From contig JAJFGW010000018.1 in the NCBI GenBank assembly GCA_021775915.1, positions 62,001-126,000 on the forward strand: 64,000 nt of DNA, read 5' to 3'. Positions 35,082 through 43,559 of this stretch are shown one piece after another (positions within the stretch are counted from its first letter, which is position 1; each line of letters starts with the position of its first letter). Both the position numbers and the translations under genes were made by a program. A model generated the notes under the pieces. The model searched no databases. It was given only the letters and a program-made list of their open reading frames with translations, and was not told the origin of the DNA. Source of the stretch: Alphaproteobacteria bacterium (lineage in GTDB: Bacteria; Pseudomonadota; Alphaproteobacteria; Micavibrionales; Micavibrionaceae).

Positions 35082-35458
35082 GATTTTTTCTCTTCCGTTC
35101 CAGTGGCAAGTTTAATGAGACCAATACCGCTGGAAATCAAAATTTTGAGGATACTCGCTAAAACGCCCATAATAGCCACGCCGAGAAACAAAAAGCTAAT
35201 TGTGCGTACGGACTCGGCCCAGTTCATTTCAAAGTCCATTTTGCGCCCGGTCGCCGCATCGATGACATGTCCGTAAATTGCCGTGTCCCCGGCGCGCACA
35301 TGCTCCAGAACAAAATGAACAATCGCAACGTCTTGAGGAGAAGTAATAACCAGATAAACCATCGCCGCGAGAAACAGCAACAATATCGCGCCCAGCAGTA
35401 CCATAATGGTGCCGAGGCTCAAAAGCGGGATACGAATGGAGGCAACAGGGTCACTCAT
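35078..35458 (-). CDS. Hypothetical membrane protein
   Basis: A 126-residue protein with two clear membrane segments (about residues 12-38 and 86-116) around a 45-residue soluble loop (VRAGDTAIYGHVIDAATGRK). The N-terminal helix is very Leu-rich. It is coupled at both ends: its start overlaps the prpD stop by 1 nt, and its stop overlaps the channel start by 4 nt. It may form a complex with the channel-like protein. Family not recognised. Confidence 0.7.
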   Translation of the reverse strand: MSDPVASIRIPLLSLGTIMVLLGAILLLFLAAMVYLVITSPQDVAIVHFVLEHVRAGDTAIYGHVIDAATGRKMDFEMNWAESVRTISFLFLGVAIMGVLASILKILISSGIGLIKLATGTEEKKS

Positions 35459-36894
35459 CAGACCAGAGCCGCCATAAAGTCGGTGACTTTCATGCTTTCC
35501 AGGTGTTTTTGGTCACTCATAAACGCCATGATCTTGTCGGCATGACCGGCATCATAATGCGTTTTGAAATTATGCTCGGCTTTAGCGAGCAATAGCGGTA
35601 TGCCTTCCTCACGGCGGCGCGGATGGCCAATCGGGTATTCGACTTCGACTTTTTCCGTTTCCGTGCCGTCCTTGAAGAAAATCTGGATCGCGTTGGCAAA
35701 AGCGCGTTTTTGCGGCTCATGATATTCGGCGGAGTAGCGTTTGTCTTCCTCGATAACCATTTTATCACGCAGCGCGTCAATGCGCGGGTCAGCGGCAACG
35801 CCATCTTCATAATGATCCGCGGTGAGGTCACCGTGGATCAAAGGCACAGCGACCATATATTGCAGACAGTGATCACGGTCAGCCGGATTATGCAACGGAC
35901 CGACTTTGCAAATAATACGGATTGCCGCGTCATGTGTAGTCAGGACAATCTGTTCAATATCATCAAGGCGGTCTTTAACCTGCGGATAAAGCTGCGCCGC
36001 GCACTCCACAGCGGTTTGCGAATGATACTCCGCCGGATACGAGATTTTAAACAGCACGTTTTCCATGACGTAAGAGCCATAGGCGCGCTGGAATTTAAAC
36101 GCATTACCACCAAACAGGACATCGTAAAAACCCCATTTAGGCGCGGTCAGCGCACTGGGGTAGCCCATTTCTCCGGCCATGGTCATGAGTGAGAGTTGCA
36201 CCGCGCGGCGACAGGCATCGCCCGCGGCCCAGCTTTTGCGCGACCCGGCATTGGGCGCATGACGGTAAGTGCGCAAGGACTGCCCGTCCGTCCATGATAG
36301 CGAAAGCGCGTCAATAATTTGCTCCCGCGTGCCGCCGAGTAGCTTCATCGCCACCGCAACCGAGGCGCATTTAACGAGCACAACATGATCGAGGCCAACT
36401 TTGTTAAACGAGTTTTCCAACGCAAGACAGCCCTGAATTTCGTGCGCCATAATCATCGCGGTCAGAACATCGCGCATTGTATAATCGGCCTTGCCACTGC
36501 GGCCCATATAATCGGCGACCGCGAGAATGGTGCCGAGATTATCGGAAGGATGCCCCCACTCCGCCGCCAGCCACGTGTCATTATAATCCAGCCAGCGGAT
36601 CATGGCGCCAATATTAAAGGCGCCCTGCACAGGATCAAGCTCGTGCTTCGTGCCGGGAATGCGGACGCCACTTCCGGGCATATCCGCGCCATCAACAACA
36701 GGGCCTAACAGCTTGGTACAAGCGGGAAATTTCAGGGCAAGGATACCACAGCCGAGCGTATCCATCAGGCAATAACGAGCCGTCTCGTATGCTAATTCGC
36801 TCTTGATTTCATAGCCCATCACGTAATCGGCAATGTCGGTCATCACCGCGTCATAACCCGGACGTTCATTAACATCGACATTATCGAGTTTCAT
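35458..36894 (-). CDS. prpD: 2-methylcitrate dehydratase PrpD
   Basis: Dehydrates 2-methylcitrate to methylaconitate in the methylcitrate cycle for propionyl-CoA. The MmgE/PrpD protein is 478 residues from the ATG at 36894, chosen because GGGAG lies 8 nt upstream; a start five codons upstream is poorer. Typical regions are [32 protein letters not shown] and [17 protein letters not shown]. Length is as expected. It lies downstream of prpB, prpC and a 54-residue ORF. No acnD or prpF is in the window. Confidence 0.93.
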
Positions 36895-36918
36895 TGCTAG
36901 TTCTCCCATTGGATGTCC

Positions 36919-37083
36919 CTATTTTTTAAATGTTGCACTAATTTCCTTACCACCAACACTCATGCTAACGGTTTCGCTTTTGTTGTTATTGTAAATAAAC
37001 ACCCCAACAACAACGATAACGGCTACAACAGCAGCAATAATCATAATGTTCTTATTGTTGCCCATTTTCTTTTCTTCACTCAT
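36919..37083 (-). CDS. 54-residue single-pass membrane peptide
   Basis: A short gene found by translating the prpC-prpD gap. It reads MSEEKKMGNNKN, then a Val/Ile-rich membrane segment (residues about 13-30), then a polar tail ending EISATFKK. AAAAAGGAG lies 8 nt upstream of the ATG at 37083, a near-perfect ribosome-binding site. It lies 20 nt after prpC and 24 nt before prpD. A type II or tail-less inner-membrane peptide is likely; function unknown. Confidence 0.7.
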   Translation of the reverse strand: MSEEKKMGNNKNIMIIAAVVAVIVVVGVFIYNNNKSETVSMSVGGKEISATFKK

Positions 37084-37103
37084 TTGTAGTCTCCTTTTTA
37101 AGA

Positions 37104-38243
37104 TTAACGTTGGTCGATTGGTACAAAATCCAGTTTTTCCGGGCCGGTATAGTCAGCCGACGGACGGATGAGCTTGTTATTTTCACGCTGCTCAAATATG
37201 TGCGCGGCCCAGCCGGTAACGCGTGACATCACGAAGATCGGCGTAAATAGCGGCGTTGGAACACCCATCATATGATAGGAACTCGCACTATAAAAATCCA
37301 GATTAGGGAACAGGTGCTTTTCGTCCCACACCATAGTTTCAATCGCCTCGGACACGGCGAATAACTCCGGTTTGCCGCCCGCCTCACATAATTTACGCGA
37401 CCATTCTTTAATCACGCGGTTGCGCGGATCACCTTCGGAATAAACGCGATGACCAAAGCCCATGATAAGCTGTTTAGTTGCCAGCATCTCTTTCACGCCT
37501 GCGGTGGCTTCTTCAGCGCCCCCAAATTTCTGGATCAGCTCCATCGCCGCTTCATTCGCGCCGCCATGCAACTTCCCGCGCAGAGCGCCAATACCGCCGC
37601 ATATGGCAGAATAGATGTCAGACAATGTGGACGTAATCGTCCGGGCGGTAAAAGTCGAGGCATTAAACTCATGCTCGGCATAAAGAATAAGCGAAACATT
37701 CATCGCCCGCGCATGCTCCGCGCTCGGCGGTTTGCCATGAAGCAACGTCAAAAAGTGCGTCGCCACATCATCCGCATCACTCACGCAATCAATGCGCTTT
37801 CCTTCGTGGGCAAATTTCCACCAGTAAACCATCATGGCCGGATAGGCCGCAATCAGACGATCGGTGATCGCTTCCTGGCAATTATCGTCGCCTTCCGGCT
37901 CGATGTTACCCAAAAACGAAGTTGCAGTGCGCATAACATCCATCGGGTGCGCGTCCTTGGGAATACGCTCTAAGACCTCTTTGAGCGCCTGCGGTAAATC
38001 ACGCGTTGCACGAAGTTTGTTCTTATAGCCTTCTAGTTCAGCCTTTTTCGGCAATTCACCGTAAACCAGCAAATAAGCGACTTCCTCAAAGCTCGCATGC
38101 TCAGCCAAATCATAAATCGAGTACCCACGATATTCCAGATTATGCGCGCCGCCTGCTGCGGAAATCCCTGTTTCTCCGGCAACTATTCCAGCAAGTCCGC
38201 CGGACTTCTTTGGTGATGCTTTTGCTGCTGCTTGTGCGCTCAT
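37104..38243 (-). CDS. prpC: 2-methylcitrate synthase / citrate synthase PrpC
   Basis: Condenses propionyl-CoA with oxaloacetate to 2-methylcitrate. The 379-residue citrate synthase-fold protein contains LHGGANEAAMELI (first active-site His), GFGHRVYSEGDPRNRVIKEW (second active-site His) and the downstream aspartate region near PNLDFYS. The shorter, type II-like length and position between prpB and prpD favour methylcitrate synthase over TCA citrate synthase, although prpC enzymes often accept acetyl-CoA too. Its start overlaps the prpB stop by 4 nt. Confidence 0.93.
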   Translation of the reverse strand: MSAQAAAKASPKKSGGLAGIVAGETGISAAGGAHNLEYRGYSIYDLAEHASFEEVAYLLVYGELPKKAELEGYKNKLRATRDLPQALKEVLERIPKDAHPMDVMRTATSFLGNIEPEGDDNCQEAITDRLIAAYPAMMVYWWKFAHEGKRIDCVSDADDVATHFLTLLHGKPPSAEHARAMNVSLILYAEHEFNASTFTARTITSTLSDIYSAICGGIGALRGKLHGGANEAAMELIQKFGGAEEATAGVKEMLATKQLIMGFGHRVYSEGDPRNRVIKEWSRKLCEAGGKPELFAVSEAIETMVWDEKHLFPNLDFYSASSYHMMGVPTPLFTPIFVMSRVTGWAAHIFEQRENNKLIRPSADYTGPEKLDFVPIDQR

Positions 38244-39115
38244 TTTTCTCTCCCAAACAATTTATCCAGTTTTTCCTCATAGGTCGCATTATCAATCACA
38301 TCATAAAGCTCAGCGCGGGTCTGCATGAGATCAACGACCGCCGCCTGCGTGCCGTCTTTGCGAATTGCGTTGTAAACACTCTCGGCAGCGCGGGCCATGG
38401 CGCGGAAGGCTGACAAAGGATACAGCGCCATATCAACACCACACTCGCCGAGCTGCGCGGTAGTATAGAGATCGGTCTTGCCAAATTCGGTGAGATTGGC
38501 CAGCAGAGGCACCTTGGTCGCGTCTTTGATTTGCTGGTAATGAGAAAGATCCGTCATTGCCTCGGCAAAAATCGCATCAGCACCACACTCCACATAATAA
38601 GCACAGCGCTCGATTACACCGTCCAGCCCTTCAGAGGCCAGTGCATCACACCGCGCCATAACAATAAAATCAGCGTCGGTTTTTGCATCGGCAGCCGCCT
38701 TAACCCGGTCGCCCATTTCCTCCTTGGAAACAAGCTCCTTATTCGGCCTGTGGCCACAACGCTTTTGCGCGACCTGGTCTTCCATATGAACCGCCGCCAC
38801 TCCGGCGCGGGTCATTTCCTTGATCGTACGGGCAATATTAAATGCCCCGCCCCAACCAACATCAATATCAGTCAGCAAGGGTAAATCACAAGCACCGGTA
38901 ATTTTACGCGCTTCCTCCAGCACATCATGCATGTCAGTAACGCCAAGATCAGGGTAGCCGTTAGACGCATAAGCCACGCCGCCACCGGACAAATAGACCG
39001 CCCGAAAACCCGCTTTTTCCGCCTGCATCGCGCTATAGGCATTAACCGCCCCCGCAATTTGGAGAGGAGCTTCTGCCTTTAGGGCTTCCTGTATTTTTGT
39101 TCCTGCTGTTTTCAT
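38240..39115 (-). CDS. prpB: 2-methylisocitrate lyase PrpB
   Basis: Cleaves 2-methylisocitrate to pyruvate and succinate, closing the methylcitrate cycle. The 291-residue ICL/PEPM-fold protein has the catalytic cysteine motif KRCGH (in QVAQKRCGHRPN, near residue 118), preceded by the metal-binding DIDVGWGG and the ligand acid in VHMEDQ. The length matches PrpB (about 295). It directly follows an SDR gene, separated by no intergenic DNA, and overlaps prpC by 4 nt. Confidence 0.95.
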   Translation of the reverse strand: MKTAGTKIQEALKAEAPLQIAGAVNAYSAMQAEKAGFRAVYLSGGGVAYASNGYPDLGVTDMHDVLEEARKITGACDLPLLTDIDVGWGGAFNIARTIKEMTRAGVAAVHMEDQVAQKRCGHRPNKELVSKEEMGDRVKAAADAKTDADFIVMARCDALASEGLDGVIERCAYYVECGADAIFAEAMTDLSHYQQIKDATKVPLLANLTEFGKTDLYTTAQLGECGVDMALYPLSAFRAMARAAESVYNAIRKDGTQAAVVDLMQTRAELYDVIDNATYEEKLDKLFGREK

Positions 39116-39883
39116 TTACTTCGCCGCCAATCGCGCGCCACCATCAAGACGGATGACACTACCGTTAAGATAACCATTTTCCGCTATATGCAATACCAGC
39201 TTACCGAACTCCTCCGGTTTTGCCATCCGCGAAGGAAACGGTACATTATTTTCAATAGACTCGCGAATGTCATCGCGCACCCCTTCCATCATCGGCGTTT
39301 CCACCGCGCCCGGCGCAATCGCAACAACACGAATACCGTTCCGTGACAAATCACGCGCCGCAGGCAGACTCATCGCAACAATAGCGCCTTTAGACGCAGC
39401 GTAGGCCGCCTGCCCGATCTGGCCTTCAAAAGCGGCAATTGAAGCGGCATTCACGATAACACCGCGCTCGCCATCATCCGTAACAGGCTCAAGCTTTGCC
39501 ATTTCACCCGCAGCAAGGCGCATTGTGTTATATGTGCCAATCAAATTAACATTAATCACCTTTTGAAAATGCGCCAGATCAGCAGGGCCATCCTTGCCTA
39601 CAACTTTTTGGCCAATCAGGATTCCGGCACAATTAACCACAATCCGCGCCACTCCGTGCGCCTTGGCAGATTTTTCAAGCGCGGCTTTGACGCTATCTTC
39701 GCTGCTGACATCGCACTCTACAGCCAATCCACCGATTTCTTCGGCCACAGCAGAGGCAGCCTCCATATTCATGTCCCACAGCGCGACTTTCGCCCCGGCT
39801 GCGGCCAATACCCGCGCGGTTGCCGCGCCCATACCAGAGCCTGCGCCAGTTACAATTGCTGCTACATCATTGAGATTATTCAT
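39116..39883 (-). CDS. Short-chain dehydrogenase, 3-hydroxyacyl-CoA dehydrogenase type II-like
   Basis: A 255-residue SDR from the ATG at 39883, which has AGGAG 8 nt upstream. Cofactor motif GAGSGMG near residue 12, NCAG near residue 85, catalytic YAASK near residue 160, and GAVETPM after it. The overall match is to HSD17B10/2-methyl-3-hydroxybutyryl-CoA dehydrogenase-type enzymes, which act in isoleucine degradation (producing propionyl-CoA) and beta-oxidation. That would make sense next to the methylcitrate genes, since isoleucine breakdown yields propionyl-CoA. The exact substrate is inferred. It leads the prpB-prpC-prpD block. Confidence 0.85.
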
Positions 39884-39983
39884 ACCCTTACTCCTGTTCT
39901 GCCACATGTTCTACGATAAAACAGAAGATCATTCAATGATGTGATTACTTGCAATTAACATATGAGTTATGGTAAGTTTTTTG

Positions 39984-41114
39984 ATGTTTAAAAAAGAACT
40001 ATTAGTAAAAACGTTTCTGGGGGCTGTCGCGAGTGCCCTCGCCCTTGCAGGACAGCTTTATGCTGCCGAGCCTGAATTTACAGGCGACGCCAAGACTGTA
40101 AATTCTGTCTGTAACTCCAAAGCGCCATTCCTTGTTCTCGACTTTTTTAGCGCACAAAAACCAGATTACGGTCACAAAACATCAGAGCACTTTATTGATA
40201 TAGACGGCGACAATATACTGGATGTTCAGCATGGGGATTTTATAAAAAAAGTTGCGGGCTTTAGCGGCAAAAAAGTCATAGCTTACGGCTTACAAAGAAA
40301 AACAAAAAGACTCGATGTTAGTATTATAAACGATGGTTTATCCAATATAATAACACTTATAAAAAATAAAAAAATGAAACCACCCGCAGCCATTCTTACA
40401 TCCTTTTCAGCCTCTTTTTACTTTGGTGAGATACACCAGAAACTAGGCGATGACCTTTCCCTCACGCCTGCCAATATCGGCGACAAAAAAGATACTGTGA
40501 TTAGCAGGTTAAAAGAAAAATACGGCAAAAAAGGTAGCGACAATCCCGATGTAAACTCTTTTTACGATTCATATAAAGCACTTAAAACGCTAAAAGAAAT
40601 GGGTGTTTCCGTCATCACAGTAGCAGGCAATAATTATTCAAAAAACATTGTTAATGTGCTTGCCTTGTTCGGCGCGGTTCCTGTGGGAGCACTAACCCAT
40701 GACGGCAGCGAAACCGCTCCCTACTCCAACCAGAACACCCTTACGACAGTCTACAAAACGGGAGACTTTATCAGCCGTAAAGTTGAAGGTGGCATCGACA
40801 TTAATAATGACAAACAAGTAGATTTCGCAACAGATGAACTATCTAATGGCAAAAGTATTGCTGCGCAATTTAACGGAATGCCAGTGAATACAAAGACCAT
40901 AGCCCCTATTTCAAAATATTTTTCATTGAGCGATGAAAACATGAGAAAAGACAGCAAGATTTATGGAGATTATGTGCACAAACCCAGCAATATACAATTC
41001 AGAAAAGATGCTGCCGGAAACCTGATTTTTGATCCGGCGGGTGACAGAGACCCAACACAAGAAATGCTCAATACGGGAACATCCTTTGCCGTTCCTGACA
41101 TATGCAACAAGTAG
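39984..41114 (+). CDS. Exported subtilase-like protein, copy 1
   Basis: A 376-residue secreted protein with signal peptide (likely cut after YAA, residue 28). Candidate subtilase (S8) residues occur in order: Asp53 in FLVLDFFS, His83 in DVQHGDFIKKVAG, Asn near 216 in ITVAGNNYS, Ser367 in NTGTSFAVP. The GTS(F/M)A-x-P box is characteristic of S8 enzymes. It ends nine residues after the serine, lacking the usual following helix. Two EF-hand-like loops (DIDGDNILD; DINNDKQVD) may bind calcium. Cys43 and Cys374 could clamp the termini. I chose the ATG at 39984 by alignment with copy 2; 39969 is an alternative. Function inferred. Confidence 0.72.
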   Translation: MFKKELLVKTFLGAVASALALAGQLYAAEPEFTGDAKTVNSVCNSKAPFLVLDFFSAQKPDYGHKTSEHFIDIDGDNILDVQHGDFIKKVAGFSGKKVIAYGLQRKTKRLDVSIINDGLSNIITLIKNKKMKPPAAILTSFSASFYFGEIHQKLGDDLSLTPANIGDKKDTVISRLKEKYGKKGSDNPDVNSFYDSYKALKTLKEMGVSVITVAGNNYSKNIVNVLALFGAVPVGALTHDGSETAPYSNQNTLTTVYKTGDFISRKVEGGIDINNDKQVDFATDELSNGKSIAAQFNGMPVNTKTIAPISKYFSLSDENMRKDSKIYGDYVHKPSNIQFRKDAAGNLIFDPAGDRDPTQEMLNTGTSFAVPDICNK

Positions 41115-41129
41115 AAATAACACCCTATA

Positions 41130-41151
41130 GTTAGCGTTAATTACCGCTAAC
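41130..41151 (+). terminator. Weak hairpin after subtilase-like copy 1
   Basis: A 7-bp stem, GTTAGCG (41130-41136) with CGCTAAC (41145-41151), has an 8-nt loop and is followed by a CTTTATTT stretch. It lies 16 nt past the stop codon. The stem is AT-rich and the T-run is broken, so termination would be partial. Confidence 0.4.
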
Positions 41152-41168
41152 ACCGCCTTTATTTGCAA

Positions 41169-41197
41169 TTGACACCTTGATTATGGTAAATTATGTA
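41169..41197 (+). promoter_or_regulatory. Strong sigma70-type promoter of subtilase-like copy 2
   Basis: TTGACA (41169-41174), 17-nt spacer, TATGTA (41192-41197), start near 41204, 17 nt before the GTG. The related sequence upstream of copy 1 (TTAACA near 39956) has lost the -35 and -10 quality, so the copies may differ in expression. Confidence 0.65.
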
Positions 41198-41220
41198 GCG
41201 TTAAACAAAAAGGTAAAACT

Positions 41221-42372
41221 GTGAAAATAGGAGCGTTAACAAAAGCATTTACAGGAATTGTCATGGGTGCCCTCGCCCTTGCAGGACAGCTATATGCTGC
41301 CGAGCCTGAATTCAAGCCTGAGCTTACGGACGATGATAAAGTTGTTAATACAGTCTGTAAATCCGACAAGCCTTTCTTTGTAATCGATTTCTTTAGCACA
41401 AAAAAACCGGATTACGGTCACACAATTCCAGAGCATATGATTGATATTGACGGCGACGGTATACTGGATATCCAGCATGGTAAAATGGTCGGAAAAGTTG
41501 CCGAGCTTACCGGCAAAAAAATTATCACTTACGGGTTAACCGGAAACCCTGCAAGCTTCGATATCTTCTCTATAATAAAAGGATTGTTTGAATTAACAGA
41601 ACTTATAGAGAGTAAAAAAATAGAGCGTCCAGCGGCTATTATCTTATCCCATTCGATAGCATATAACCTTGAAAAAATACATAACCTGTTAGGCCGTGAC
41701 CTCTCTATCACCTTCGATAACATTGCAGATAAGAAGGACGACATTGTTGCCAGAATAAAAGGGAAATTCGATGAAAAAGGCAGTAGTACCGACATAAATT
41801 ATTTTCACCGGCTTCATGAATTATTCGGGATATTAAAAGAAATGGGTGTTCCGGCAATCACAGGAGCAGGCAATGATTACTCAGAAAATTTTAATTTGCT
41901 TGGCGTGCTTGGCGCGCTCCCGGTAGGAGCACTAACCCACGATGGTAACGAAACTGCCCCCTATTCCGATGAAAGCAGTCTGATCAATGTTCGTAGACCG
42001 GGCGATTTTATCGGACACGAAATTCCCGGCGGTATCGACATTAACAATGATGGACAAGTGGATTTCAAAACAGACGAACTGTCTAACGGTGAAAAAATTA
42101 CCGCGCAATTTAACGGACAGTCGATATTCAACGAGTCACCGGCAGGAGAACACAGAATCCCTCTTTTTTCAGAACAATCGGCACTGAACAGCAAAAATAC
42201 AAAAAAGCACATCAAGACTTATGGGGAATATAGACACGCCCCCAGCGATCTGCTGTTCAGAGGAAATGCCGCCGGAAAGCTGATTTTCGATCCGGCCAAT
42301 GATGGCGACCCGACACAAGTCACAATTAATTCAGGGACATCCTTCGCCGCCCCTAATATTTGTAGCAAATAA
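41221..42372 (+). CDS. Exported subtilase-like protein, copy 2
   Basis: A 383-residue paralogue of the preceding gene, sharing the signal peptide end (ALALAGQLYAAEPEF) and all candidate catalytic positions: Asp56 (FFVIDFFS), His86 (LDIQHGKMVGKVA), Asn in ITGAGNDYS, and Ser374 (NSGTSFAAP). It also ends a few residues after the serine, with Cys46 and Cys381 conserved. EF-hand-like loops DIDGDGILD and DINNDGQVD are even closer to consensus than in copy 1. The start is a GTG at 41221 following AAAAGG. Its own promoter lies directly upstream. The two copies have diverged widely in the middle third, suggesting an old duplication with different targets or partners. Confidence 0.72.
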   Translation: MKIGALTKAFTGIVMGALALAGQLYAAEPEFKPELTDDDKVVNTVCKSDKPFFVIDFFSTKKPDYGHTIPEHMIDIDGDGILDIQHGKMVGKVAELTGKKIITYGLTGNPASFDIFSIIKGLFELTELIESKKIERPAAIILSHSIAYNLEKIHNLLGRDLSITFDNIADKKDDIVARIKGKFDEKGSSTDINYFHRLHELFGILKEMGVPAITGAGNDYSENFNLLGVLGALPVGALTHDGNETAPYSDESSLINVRRPGDFIGHEIPGGIDINNDGQVDFKTDELSNGEKITAQFNGQSIFNESPAGEHRIPLFSEQSALNSKNTKKHIKTYGEYRHAPSDLLFRGNAAGKLIFDPANDGDPTQVTINSGTSFAAPNICSK

Positions 42373-42374
42373 AC

Positions 42375-43559
42375 CTAACGCTCTACCGCCACCGCAACAG
42401 CTTCACCGCCGCCGATACAAAGCGTAGCCATACCGCGCTTAAGGTCATGCTGCTCCAACGCCGCCAGCAATGTCACGAGTATCCGCGCGCCGCTGGCACC
42501 GATCGGGTGACCGAGAGCACAAGCACCACCATTGATATTCACTTTATCAGACGGCAACGAGAGCTCCTGCATCGCCGCCATAGTGACAACCGCGAAGGCT
42601 TCATTGACCTCAAACAAATCTACTTCTTTCAAGTCCCATCCGGTTTTATCACTGAGCTGTTGCAACGCGCCAACGGGCGCAGTTGTAAACCATTCCGGCT
42701 CCCTCGCATGGGTAACATGGCCCGTAATCGTGGCAAGAATGTTAGAATCGCGCTTCTCCGCCTCGCTGCGCCGCATAAGAACAAGCGCCGCCGCACCGTC
42801 ACTGATCGAACTGGAATTGGCCGCCGTCACCGTGCCATCTTTATCAAAGGCCGGACGCAATGTCGGAATTTTATCGGGATTGCCTTTACAGGGCGGCTCA
42901 TCAATCACAACTTCAGTCTCAGCCTTGCGGGTCTTGACCATGACAGATGTAATCTGGCTGGCAAAACTACCGTCCTGAATGGCAAGCTGCGCCCGCGCCA
43001 GAGAGTTAATCGCGAACTCGTCCTGCGCTTCACGGGTGAATTGATAATGCCCGGCGCACCTCTCGGCATAAACGCCCATCAACGTGCCACGATCATAGGC
43101 GTCTTCCAGTCCATCAAGAAACATATGATCCATCACCTGCGCATGCCCCATACGCAAGCCATCACGGGCTTTGGGAAGAAGATACGGCGCATTACTCATA
43201 CTCTCCATACCACCCGCAACCATGATATTGTGACTACCCGCGAGAATTTCATCATGCGCCATCATCACGGCCTTAAGGCCGGAACCGCACATTTTATTAA
43301 TCGTGGTACAGCCTGTGGCCTGCGATAATCCTGCGCCTAATGAGGCCTGCCGCGCAGGAGCCTGCCCTTGCCCCGCCGAAAGGACACAGCCCATAATCAC
43401 ATCGTCGATATTGTCATTGGAAATACAGGCACGCTCTACCGCCGCTTTAATCGCCACCGCGCCGAGCTGCGGTGCCGTCATCGGAGCCAAGTCCCCCTGA
43501 AACGCACCCATCGGCGTGCGCGCCATGCCTACAATAACGATCGGATCTTCATGTTTCAT
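42375..43559 (-). CDS. Acetyl-CoA C-acyltransferase (thiolase), second copy
   Basis: A 394-residue thiolase. Nucleophile Cys is in NKMCGSGLKAVM near residue 90, followed by [26 protein letters not shown] and CIGGGEAVAV. It is clearly related to phaA at 814-2022 yet distinct (for example CALGHP versus ISLGHP). Its stop is 2 nt from the end of the convergent subtilase-like gene. Likely substrates are acetoacetyl-CoA or 2-methylacetoacetyl-CoA, fitting leucine, isoleucine or beta-oxidation breakdown, but this is inference. Gene symbol not assigned because phaA, atoB and thlA cannot be separated by reading. Confidence 0.92.
   Translation of the reverse strand: MKHEDPIVIVGMARTPMGAFQGDLAPMTAPQLGAVAIKAAVERACISNDNIDDVIMGCVLSAGQGQAPARQASLGAGLSQATGCTTINKMCGSGLKAVMMAHDEILAGSHNIMVAGGMESMSNAPYLLPKARDGLRMGHAQVMDHMFLDGLEDAYDRGTLMGVYAERCAGHYQFTREAQDEFAINSLARAQLAIQDGSFASQITSVMVKTRKAETEVVIDEPPCKGNPDKIPTLRPAFDKDGTVTAANSSSISDGAAALVLMRRSEAEKRDSNILATITGHVTHAREPEWFTTAPVGALQQLSDKTGWDLKEVDLFEVNEAFAVVTMAAMQELSLPSDKVNINGGACALGHPIGASGARILVTLLAALEQHDLKRGMATLCIGGGEAVAVAVER

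Follow-up and report, generated by a model that had tools for sequence, protein, structure and literature searches.

The sequence analysed here (hereafter, the window) is a stretch of 64,000 nucleotides from an alphaproteobacterium of the family Micavibrionaceae (GenBank assembly GCA_021775915.1, contig JAJFGW010000018.1, positions 62,001 to 126,000), whose genome (G000) comprises 2.45 Mb in 51 contigs. We found that two tandem open reading frames on the plus strand, gene 1 (376 residues) and gene 2 (383 residues), with 55% mutual identity, encode proteins that carry candidate catalytic residues in the order known from S8 subtilases and that end almost directly after the candidate catalytic serine. 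The explanation that we favour, with a probability of roughly 0.6, is that both are exported, probably active S8-related serine peptidases, in which a disulfide would link a shortened serine helix to the stretch that precedes the Asp strand; this is based on sequence comparison and on structure models. The two proteins are best read as members of a small unnamed family related to the S8 subtilases (clan SB).

The genes and the residues on which the argument turns are given below in window coordinates. Each of these residues is invariant in 16/16 aligned family members, and the His, Asn and Ser columns are common to 31/31 S8 rows of a mixed alignment (computed on G001_D, a member from another genome of the genus, and three other members).

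39984..41114, plus strand: gene 1, S8-like protein P0001, 376 residues, signal-like N-terminus (by eye)
40110..40112, plus strand: Cys43 of gene 1, ten residues before the Asp (D-10)
40140..40142, plus strand: Asp53 of gene 1, catalytic Asp candidate
40230..40232, plus strand: His83 of gene 1, catalytic His candidate
40629..40631, plus strand: Asn216 of gene 1, oxyanion Asn candidate
41082..41084, plus strand: Ser367 of gene 1, catalytic Ser candidate
41103..41105, plus strand: Cys374 of gene 1, seven residues past the Ser (S+7)
41221..42372, plus strand: gene 2, S8-like protein P0002, 383 residues, GTG start, signal-like N-terminus (by eye)
41356..41358, plus strand: Cys46 of gene 2 (D-10)
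41386..41388, plus strand: Asp56 of gene 2, catalytic Asp candidate
41476..41478, plus strand: His86 of gene 2, catalytic His candidate
41872..41874, plus strand: Asn218 of gene 2, oxyanion Asn candidate
42340..42342, plus strand: Ser374 of gene 2, catalytic Ser candidate
42361..42363, plus strand: Cys381 of gene 2 (S+7)

In both proteins, the order of the candidates is Asp, His, a serine of the SxG strand (S140 in gene 1, S143 in gene 2), Asn and Ser, i.e., the S8 order, and each protein contains exactly two cysteines (43 and 374 in gene 1; 46 and 381 in gene 2). The catalytic serine candidate lies in a GTSFA[VA]P box, and both chains stop nine residues past it, with the C-terminal ends GTSFAVPDICNK in gene 1 and GTSFAAPNICSK in gene 2, each followed by the stop. 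An initial annotation of the window, made from the letters alone, had described D, H, N and S candidates in subtilase order, a GTSFAxP box with a stop within nine residues of its serine, and conserved cysteines near each end. All of these were borne out in both paralogues, and the search for orthologues in related genomes that it had suggested yielded relatives in the window's genus, in one more genus of its family (G076), and in genus g333 of another order.

Alphaproteobacteria yielded at least 20 genes with this design, and 16 full-length members were aligned (two from the window, two from G001, two from G076 and ten from g333). Left out of the 16 were copy A of G001 (an N-terminal part at a contig end, with runs of N) and copy B of G001 (72 residues, C-terminal end), which may together be one gene, as well as G1143, which is split in two frames, and the intact G1144 and G1145, which were read later. 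Of 263 gap-free columns, 18 are invariant, including D, H, N and S; in gene 2 numbering, these are C46, D56, H86, G87, P137, S143, G217, N218, N225, G231, G236, L238, G261, T373, S374, A376, P378 and C381. The hypergeometric probability for D, H, N and S to be all invariant is 1.6e-5, and it decreases to 2e-9 when the SxG serine and both cysteines are added; both values treat the columns as exchangeable and leave the relatedness of the members unmodelled. The spacing is equally constant, with 10 residues between Cys and Asp and 7 between Ser and Cys in 16/16 members, and, when the partial and later-read genes are included, a cysteine is found at S+7 in 20/20 C-termini and at D-10 in 20/20 N-termini. 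Further cysteines are present in 4/16 members, all near the N-terminus in signal-like sequence; for nine g333 members, a script chose a Met as the N-terminal start, and the count of cysteines in the signal region may therefore be too low. One paralogue, G001_C (L007 6262-7329), has a lipobox-like LTGC and may be a lipoprotein, its match to LPAM_1 being weak (E 0.15, below the cut-off).

The identity between the four members from the window's genus and the other 12 is 21-31%, and it is 45-94% inside g333. For three closely related g333 pairs, the ratio of nonsynonymous to synonymous divergence (dN/dS, NG86) was 0.12, 0.12 and 0.14, and on these values the three pairs are under purifying selection. 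The ratio was 0.27 in a more distant g333 pair and 0.31 in the window pair, for which dS is 1.05, i.e., near saturation. In the phylogenetic tree, the members form two supported groups, one with the window pair, G001 and G076_b and the other with G076_a and g333, and the short C-terminal end is found in both; G076_b is on a long branch and its placement is unsure. In G076_a (L011 1483-2730) and in the g333 loci L029-L039, the serine box reads ATS for GTS, with Ala replacing the Gly two residues before the catalytic serine, a position adjacent to the active site.

The invariance of the catalytic set bears on another reading, in which the proteins are pseudoenzymes, i.e., exported S8-like ligand binders (the initial annotation had raised inactive binders) or protease inhibitors, whose catalysis was abolished by the loss of the helix. 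The family lacks a core element of ordinary S8 enzymes, and the Ala of the ATS subgroup would also suit such a loss of function. However, 16/16 members have kept D, H, N and S, down to 21% identity, and subtilase-like binders usually lose at least one catalytic residue. The sequence evidence thus speaks against inactive binders, and we consider them unlikely.

The second distinctive property of the family is where the chain ends. The distance from the serine to the end is 9, 9, 9, 24, 9 and 10 residues in the six members from the window's family and 20-29 residues in the ten g333 genes, and the tails past Cys S+7 look unconserved. We compared these distances to those in 80 S8 loci from viral contigs, 4/80 of which have no stop in view. 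Among the 76 loci with a visible stop, the serine-to-stop distance is 54-443 residues (median, 81), versus 9-29 in the 16 family members, and 0/76 of these ordinary S8 enzymes stop within 53 residues of the serine; the control loci were picked for their relation to ordinary S8 enzymes, some being near copies of each other, and therefore they describe those enzymes rather than all subtilases. A constant element of the subtilisin core is a long helix beginning at the catalytic serine; in the family, this full helix and the C-terminal region that ordinary S8 members have past the serine are absent. Because of this difference in the chain end (9-29 residues versus at least 54 in the controls), we treat the family as an S8-related variant, not as ordinary S8 members.

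A truncated or decaying gene would be an alternative account of such an end. No continuing hydrophobic helix was seen by eye in the six frames downstream of the stops (three per gene), and the gene 2 stop falls just before a convergent thiolase-like gene (42375). Truncation or frameshift was rejected on the absence of a helix in the frames past the stops and on the same end in all 20 C-termini read. Among the 13 g333 genes, one (G1143, L129 801-2150) runs over two reading frames; either the gene is broken or its sequence contains an error, and this is the one point in favour of decay. The shared end, with a cysteine at S+7 in 20/20 C-termini, the purifying selection, and the short end in both tree groups stand against it; decay has a negligible probability, and for the family as a whole it is refuted.

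The relationship to S8 enzymes was recovered by profiles and by alignment. A single-sequence search against PDB gave a subtilisin-like protease at E 0.12, and a six-member profile matched the S8 chains Alp1 (E 3.3e-4) and 6f9m (E 8.6e-4), with a few non-subtilases in the lower rows. The Alp1 match covers three co-linear segments, H-to-SxG, Asn and Ser, each being weak alone (-1.5 bits for the Ser segment), and this co-linearity speaks against a circular permutation in sequence order. Comparison with four subtilases of the class by hhalign gave a value of 97.4 over 76 columns around the Asn. When seven proteins were scanned against the Pfam S8 cut-off (PF00082), one was above it (G001_C, 24.5 versus 21.8 bits), G076_b was below it, and five had no match. 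In an unguided alignment of four members with 31 S8 stretches, drawn from the 80 viral S8 loci (L065 was dropped because of two stops in its stretch), the H, N and S columns are common in 35/35 rows. The PDB profile matches and the hhalign comparison indicate homology of the family to known S8 enzymes at the profile level.

Compared to S8 subtilases such as subtilisin, proteinase K and fungal Alp1, the family has the same D-H-SxG-N-S order, the AGN and GTSxAxP boxes, and a nearly equal D-H spacing (30 versus 32 in subtilisin). In contrast, its SxG-to-Asn spacing is 68-80 in the 16 members versus 30 in subtilisin, the invariant Cys pair is a property of the family, as is the early end of the chain, and the window pair leaves no room for a signal peptide together with a classical propeptide, since only 42 (gene 1) and 45 (gene 2) residues precede the first Cys.

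An AlphaFold2 model of the compact G001_D, seeded by adding the 31 S8 rows to its alignment, had a predicted local distance difference test score (pLDDT) of 79 and a predicted template modelling score (pTM) of 0.79. Foldseek returned 36 matches at E <= 0.001 for this model, all of them by title subtilases or subtilase complexes, and VIA-align (VIA) superposed it on subtilisin 3f49 residues 22-230 with Z 13.1 and 3.1 A over 170 residues. In the subtilisin rows listed, the match begins at model residue 23, which is the first cysteine, and nearly all of these rows end at chain residue 229 or 230. A well-predicted helix, at model residues 14-24, is outside the match in the listed subtilisin rows and inside it in several rows of PCSK9 (Z ~12.5-13.1), a subtilase-fold protein that is mainly a binder and that, unlike the family, has the full helix and further domains. 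The C-terminal stump is modelled with high confidence (last block, pLDDT 92) as a helix of about two turns (288-294). The helix after the serine, described in the initial annotation as missing, therefore appears to be cut short: most of it is absent, and about two turns are modelled.

Several observations weigh against the S8-related interpretation. The window pair had no S8 match in Pfam or NCBIfam in single-sequence searches, and a search of the window genome with PF00082 at E 10 did not find the pair and found two other subtilases; these are ordinary large S8 subtilases with long C-terminal regions (L024 1348-3861, on G000:C20, and L025 1-2562, on G000:C44). In 31/31 S8 rows of the mixed alignment, a gap stands opposite the Asp, and the SxG serine is not lined up; thus, both assignments rely on spacing and on the match to Alp1. 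The initial annotation had proposed structure prediction with a Foldseek search. For gene 2, an unseeded AlphaFold2 model built on five sequences was weak (pLDDT 54, pTM 0.57), and Foldseek gave nothing at E <= 0.001 for it, with unrelated enzymes at the top of the listing. The seven best VIA rows of the unseeded model were S53 or S8 chains (Z 7.0-5.6); all Z values were below 8, weak when taken alone, with an unrelated chain close behind at Z 5.3. For the seeded model, the query-normalised Foldseek TM-scores in the listed rows were only 0.31-0.48, and, since 31 S8 rows were in its alignment, the model shows compatibility with an S8 core and not proof of it. Finally, positions 22 and 228 of an ordinary subtilisin need not touch.

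The same searches raise the possibility of an S53 sedolisin-like enzyme in place of an S8 one. Kumamolisin-As is the top VIA row of the unseeded model (at Z 7.0, with S8 rows no more than about 1 lower), and kumamolisin is also among the rows of the seeded model (Z 12.5), close enough to the S8 rows that the fold alone does not separate S8 from S53; sedolisins have a related fold and a GTS-type serine box. However, an invariant HG of the family occupies the column of the S8 His, whereas sedolisins use a Glu-Asp-Ser triad in place of Asp-His-Ser, and both the profile hits and the Pfam hit point to S8. We consider an S53 assignment to be very improbable.

According to the favoured explanation, the protein would adopt a subtilisin core that extends to about residue 230 (BPN' numbering), with a serine-carrying helix only about two turns long. 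The cysteine at S+7 would bond to the cysteine at D-10, ahead of the Asp strand, and would so anchor the serine stump on the sheet, taking over the stabilising role of the missing helix and C-terminal region. The exposed sheet may be covered by a short N-terminal helix or by a family-specific insertion, about 40 residues long, that separates the SxG strand from the Asn. Peptide bonds would be cut by the usual subtilisin chemistry, either in the periplasm or on the cell surface. The initial annotation had suggested a compact or permuted S8 variant with disulfide-joined ends: the compact, disulfide-linked form is well supported (by the profile, the alignment, the model and the fixed Cys spacing), and the permutation is not supported, the boxes being co-linear with those of subtilisin. 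A tentative version of the design, which is possible and less than an even bet, is a split-helix subtilase, in which the lower half of the serine helix would be replaced by the helix before the Asp strand, ending at the first Cys and connected to the chain end through a disulfide rather than a peptide bond. If this were the case, the catalytic serine would be held by a redox-sensitive link, and reduction could switch the protease off.

The calcium loops noted in the initial annotation are present as follows.

40197..40223, plus strand: first calcium-loop-like stretch of gene 1, DIDGDNILD
40797..40823, plus strand: second calcium-loop-like stretch of gene 1, DINNDKQVD
41443..41469, plus strand: first calcium-loop-like stretch of gene 2, DIDGDGILD
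42037..42063, plus strand: second calcium-loop-like stretch of gene 2, DINNDGQVD

These stretches, assigned from sequence, are found in the window pair and in G001; they are not kept family-wide, being absent from G076_b and from g333, and are therefore not essential to the design.

Matches were found in 2/58 genomes of relatives, in 3/142 genomes of the order and, at E <= 1e-6, in 2/398 genomes of a phylum sample (the sampled sets overlap, and these three include the window's own genome). Near G602, matches were found in 10/297 genomes of its order and 13/18 of its family, where all 13 genomes of genus g333 matched, compared to 0/5 genomes of the other two genera. In a class sample, 7/385 genomes matched, namely, the window's own genome and six with short matches at or near the Asn; four of the latter (L018, L019, L021 and L022) read as ordinary S8 subtilases, L020 gave no subtilase in the frame that was read, and for L017 the reading covered a single strand. 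We also considered, and rejected, a location on phages or plasmids: gene 2 had no tblastn match in a phage collection and the G602 protein had none in a plasmid collection (the two pairings tried), and no relative of the family was confirmed in viral contigs. A check of the guess that genus g333 is a methane oxidiser was uninformative, because PF02461 matched 0/8 genomes and the control genomes had no match either.

The gene pair lies between the following elements.

39116..39907, minus strand: short-chain dehydrogenase/reductase (SDR)-like gene, which in G002 and G003 lies beside the thiolase gene with no array between them
39945..39995, plus strand: upstream copy of the duplicated unit, a 71% repeat of 41159-41209
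41159..41209, plus strand: stretch upstream of gene 2, a 71% repeat of 39945-39995
42375..43559, minus strand: thiolase-like gene (from sequence)

The product names of the flanking genes are our assignments from motifs. The array is on the plus strand, inside a run of minus-strand genes (35458-43559) that we take to resemble a thiolase, an SDR, a PrpB-like lyase, a citrate/methylcitrate synthase and a PrpD-like protein. In G002 and G003, from the window's genus, the thiolase and SDR genes are directly adjacent on one strand, and no copy of the family was found at E <= 0.001. G001, from the same genus, has three or four copies at the equivalent place on two contigs: the first has an N-terminal part beside the SDR gene, and the second has a C-terminal part, together with two whole genes, beside the thiolase gene. 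In G076, two copies are found at two other genomic places. The window pair groups at 86/92 in the tree, and thus the duplication was probably local; we propose that the pair was born by duplication inside the thiolase-SDR gene pair. The repeated stretches indicate that the duplicated unit took in upstream sequence. The open reading frame listing also offers an ATG at 39969 as the gene 1 start; since this ATG falls in the stretch repeated before gene 2, 39984 is the better start.

The tandem copies in the window's genus would fit a reading in which catalysis needs a second chain, with a dimer partner, another protein or the neighbouring paralogue supplying the missing helix, and something must cover the site that the helix left. 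However, a single match was found in each of the ten g333 genomes examined (10/10), no gene neighbour is common to all six compared stretches outside the window, and no partner candidate was found; we regard this reading as improbable. The g333 neighbours (L120-L122 and L125) differ, save for a few genes common to two or three of the four stretches.

In a literature search whose coverage leaves out most subscription journals, we found no report of a subtilase that ends at its serine. The chemistry and the ancestry of these proteins are known, and their way of closing the fold looks like a new variant. A family that is without most of the serine helix, yet keeps the catalytic residues at low identity, suggests that the subtilase fold can be closed in another way. 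This makes it testable how much scaffold catalysis needs, and the family may offer a small protease scaffold. For the genes themselves, which Pfam and NCBIfam leave unnamed, the analysis provides a likely identity.

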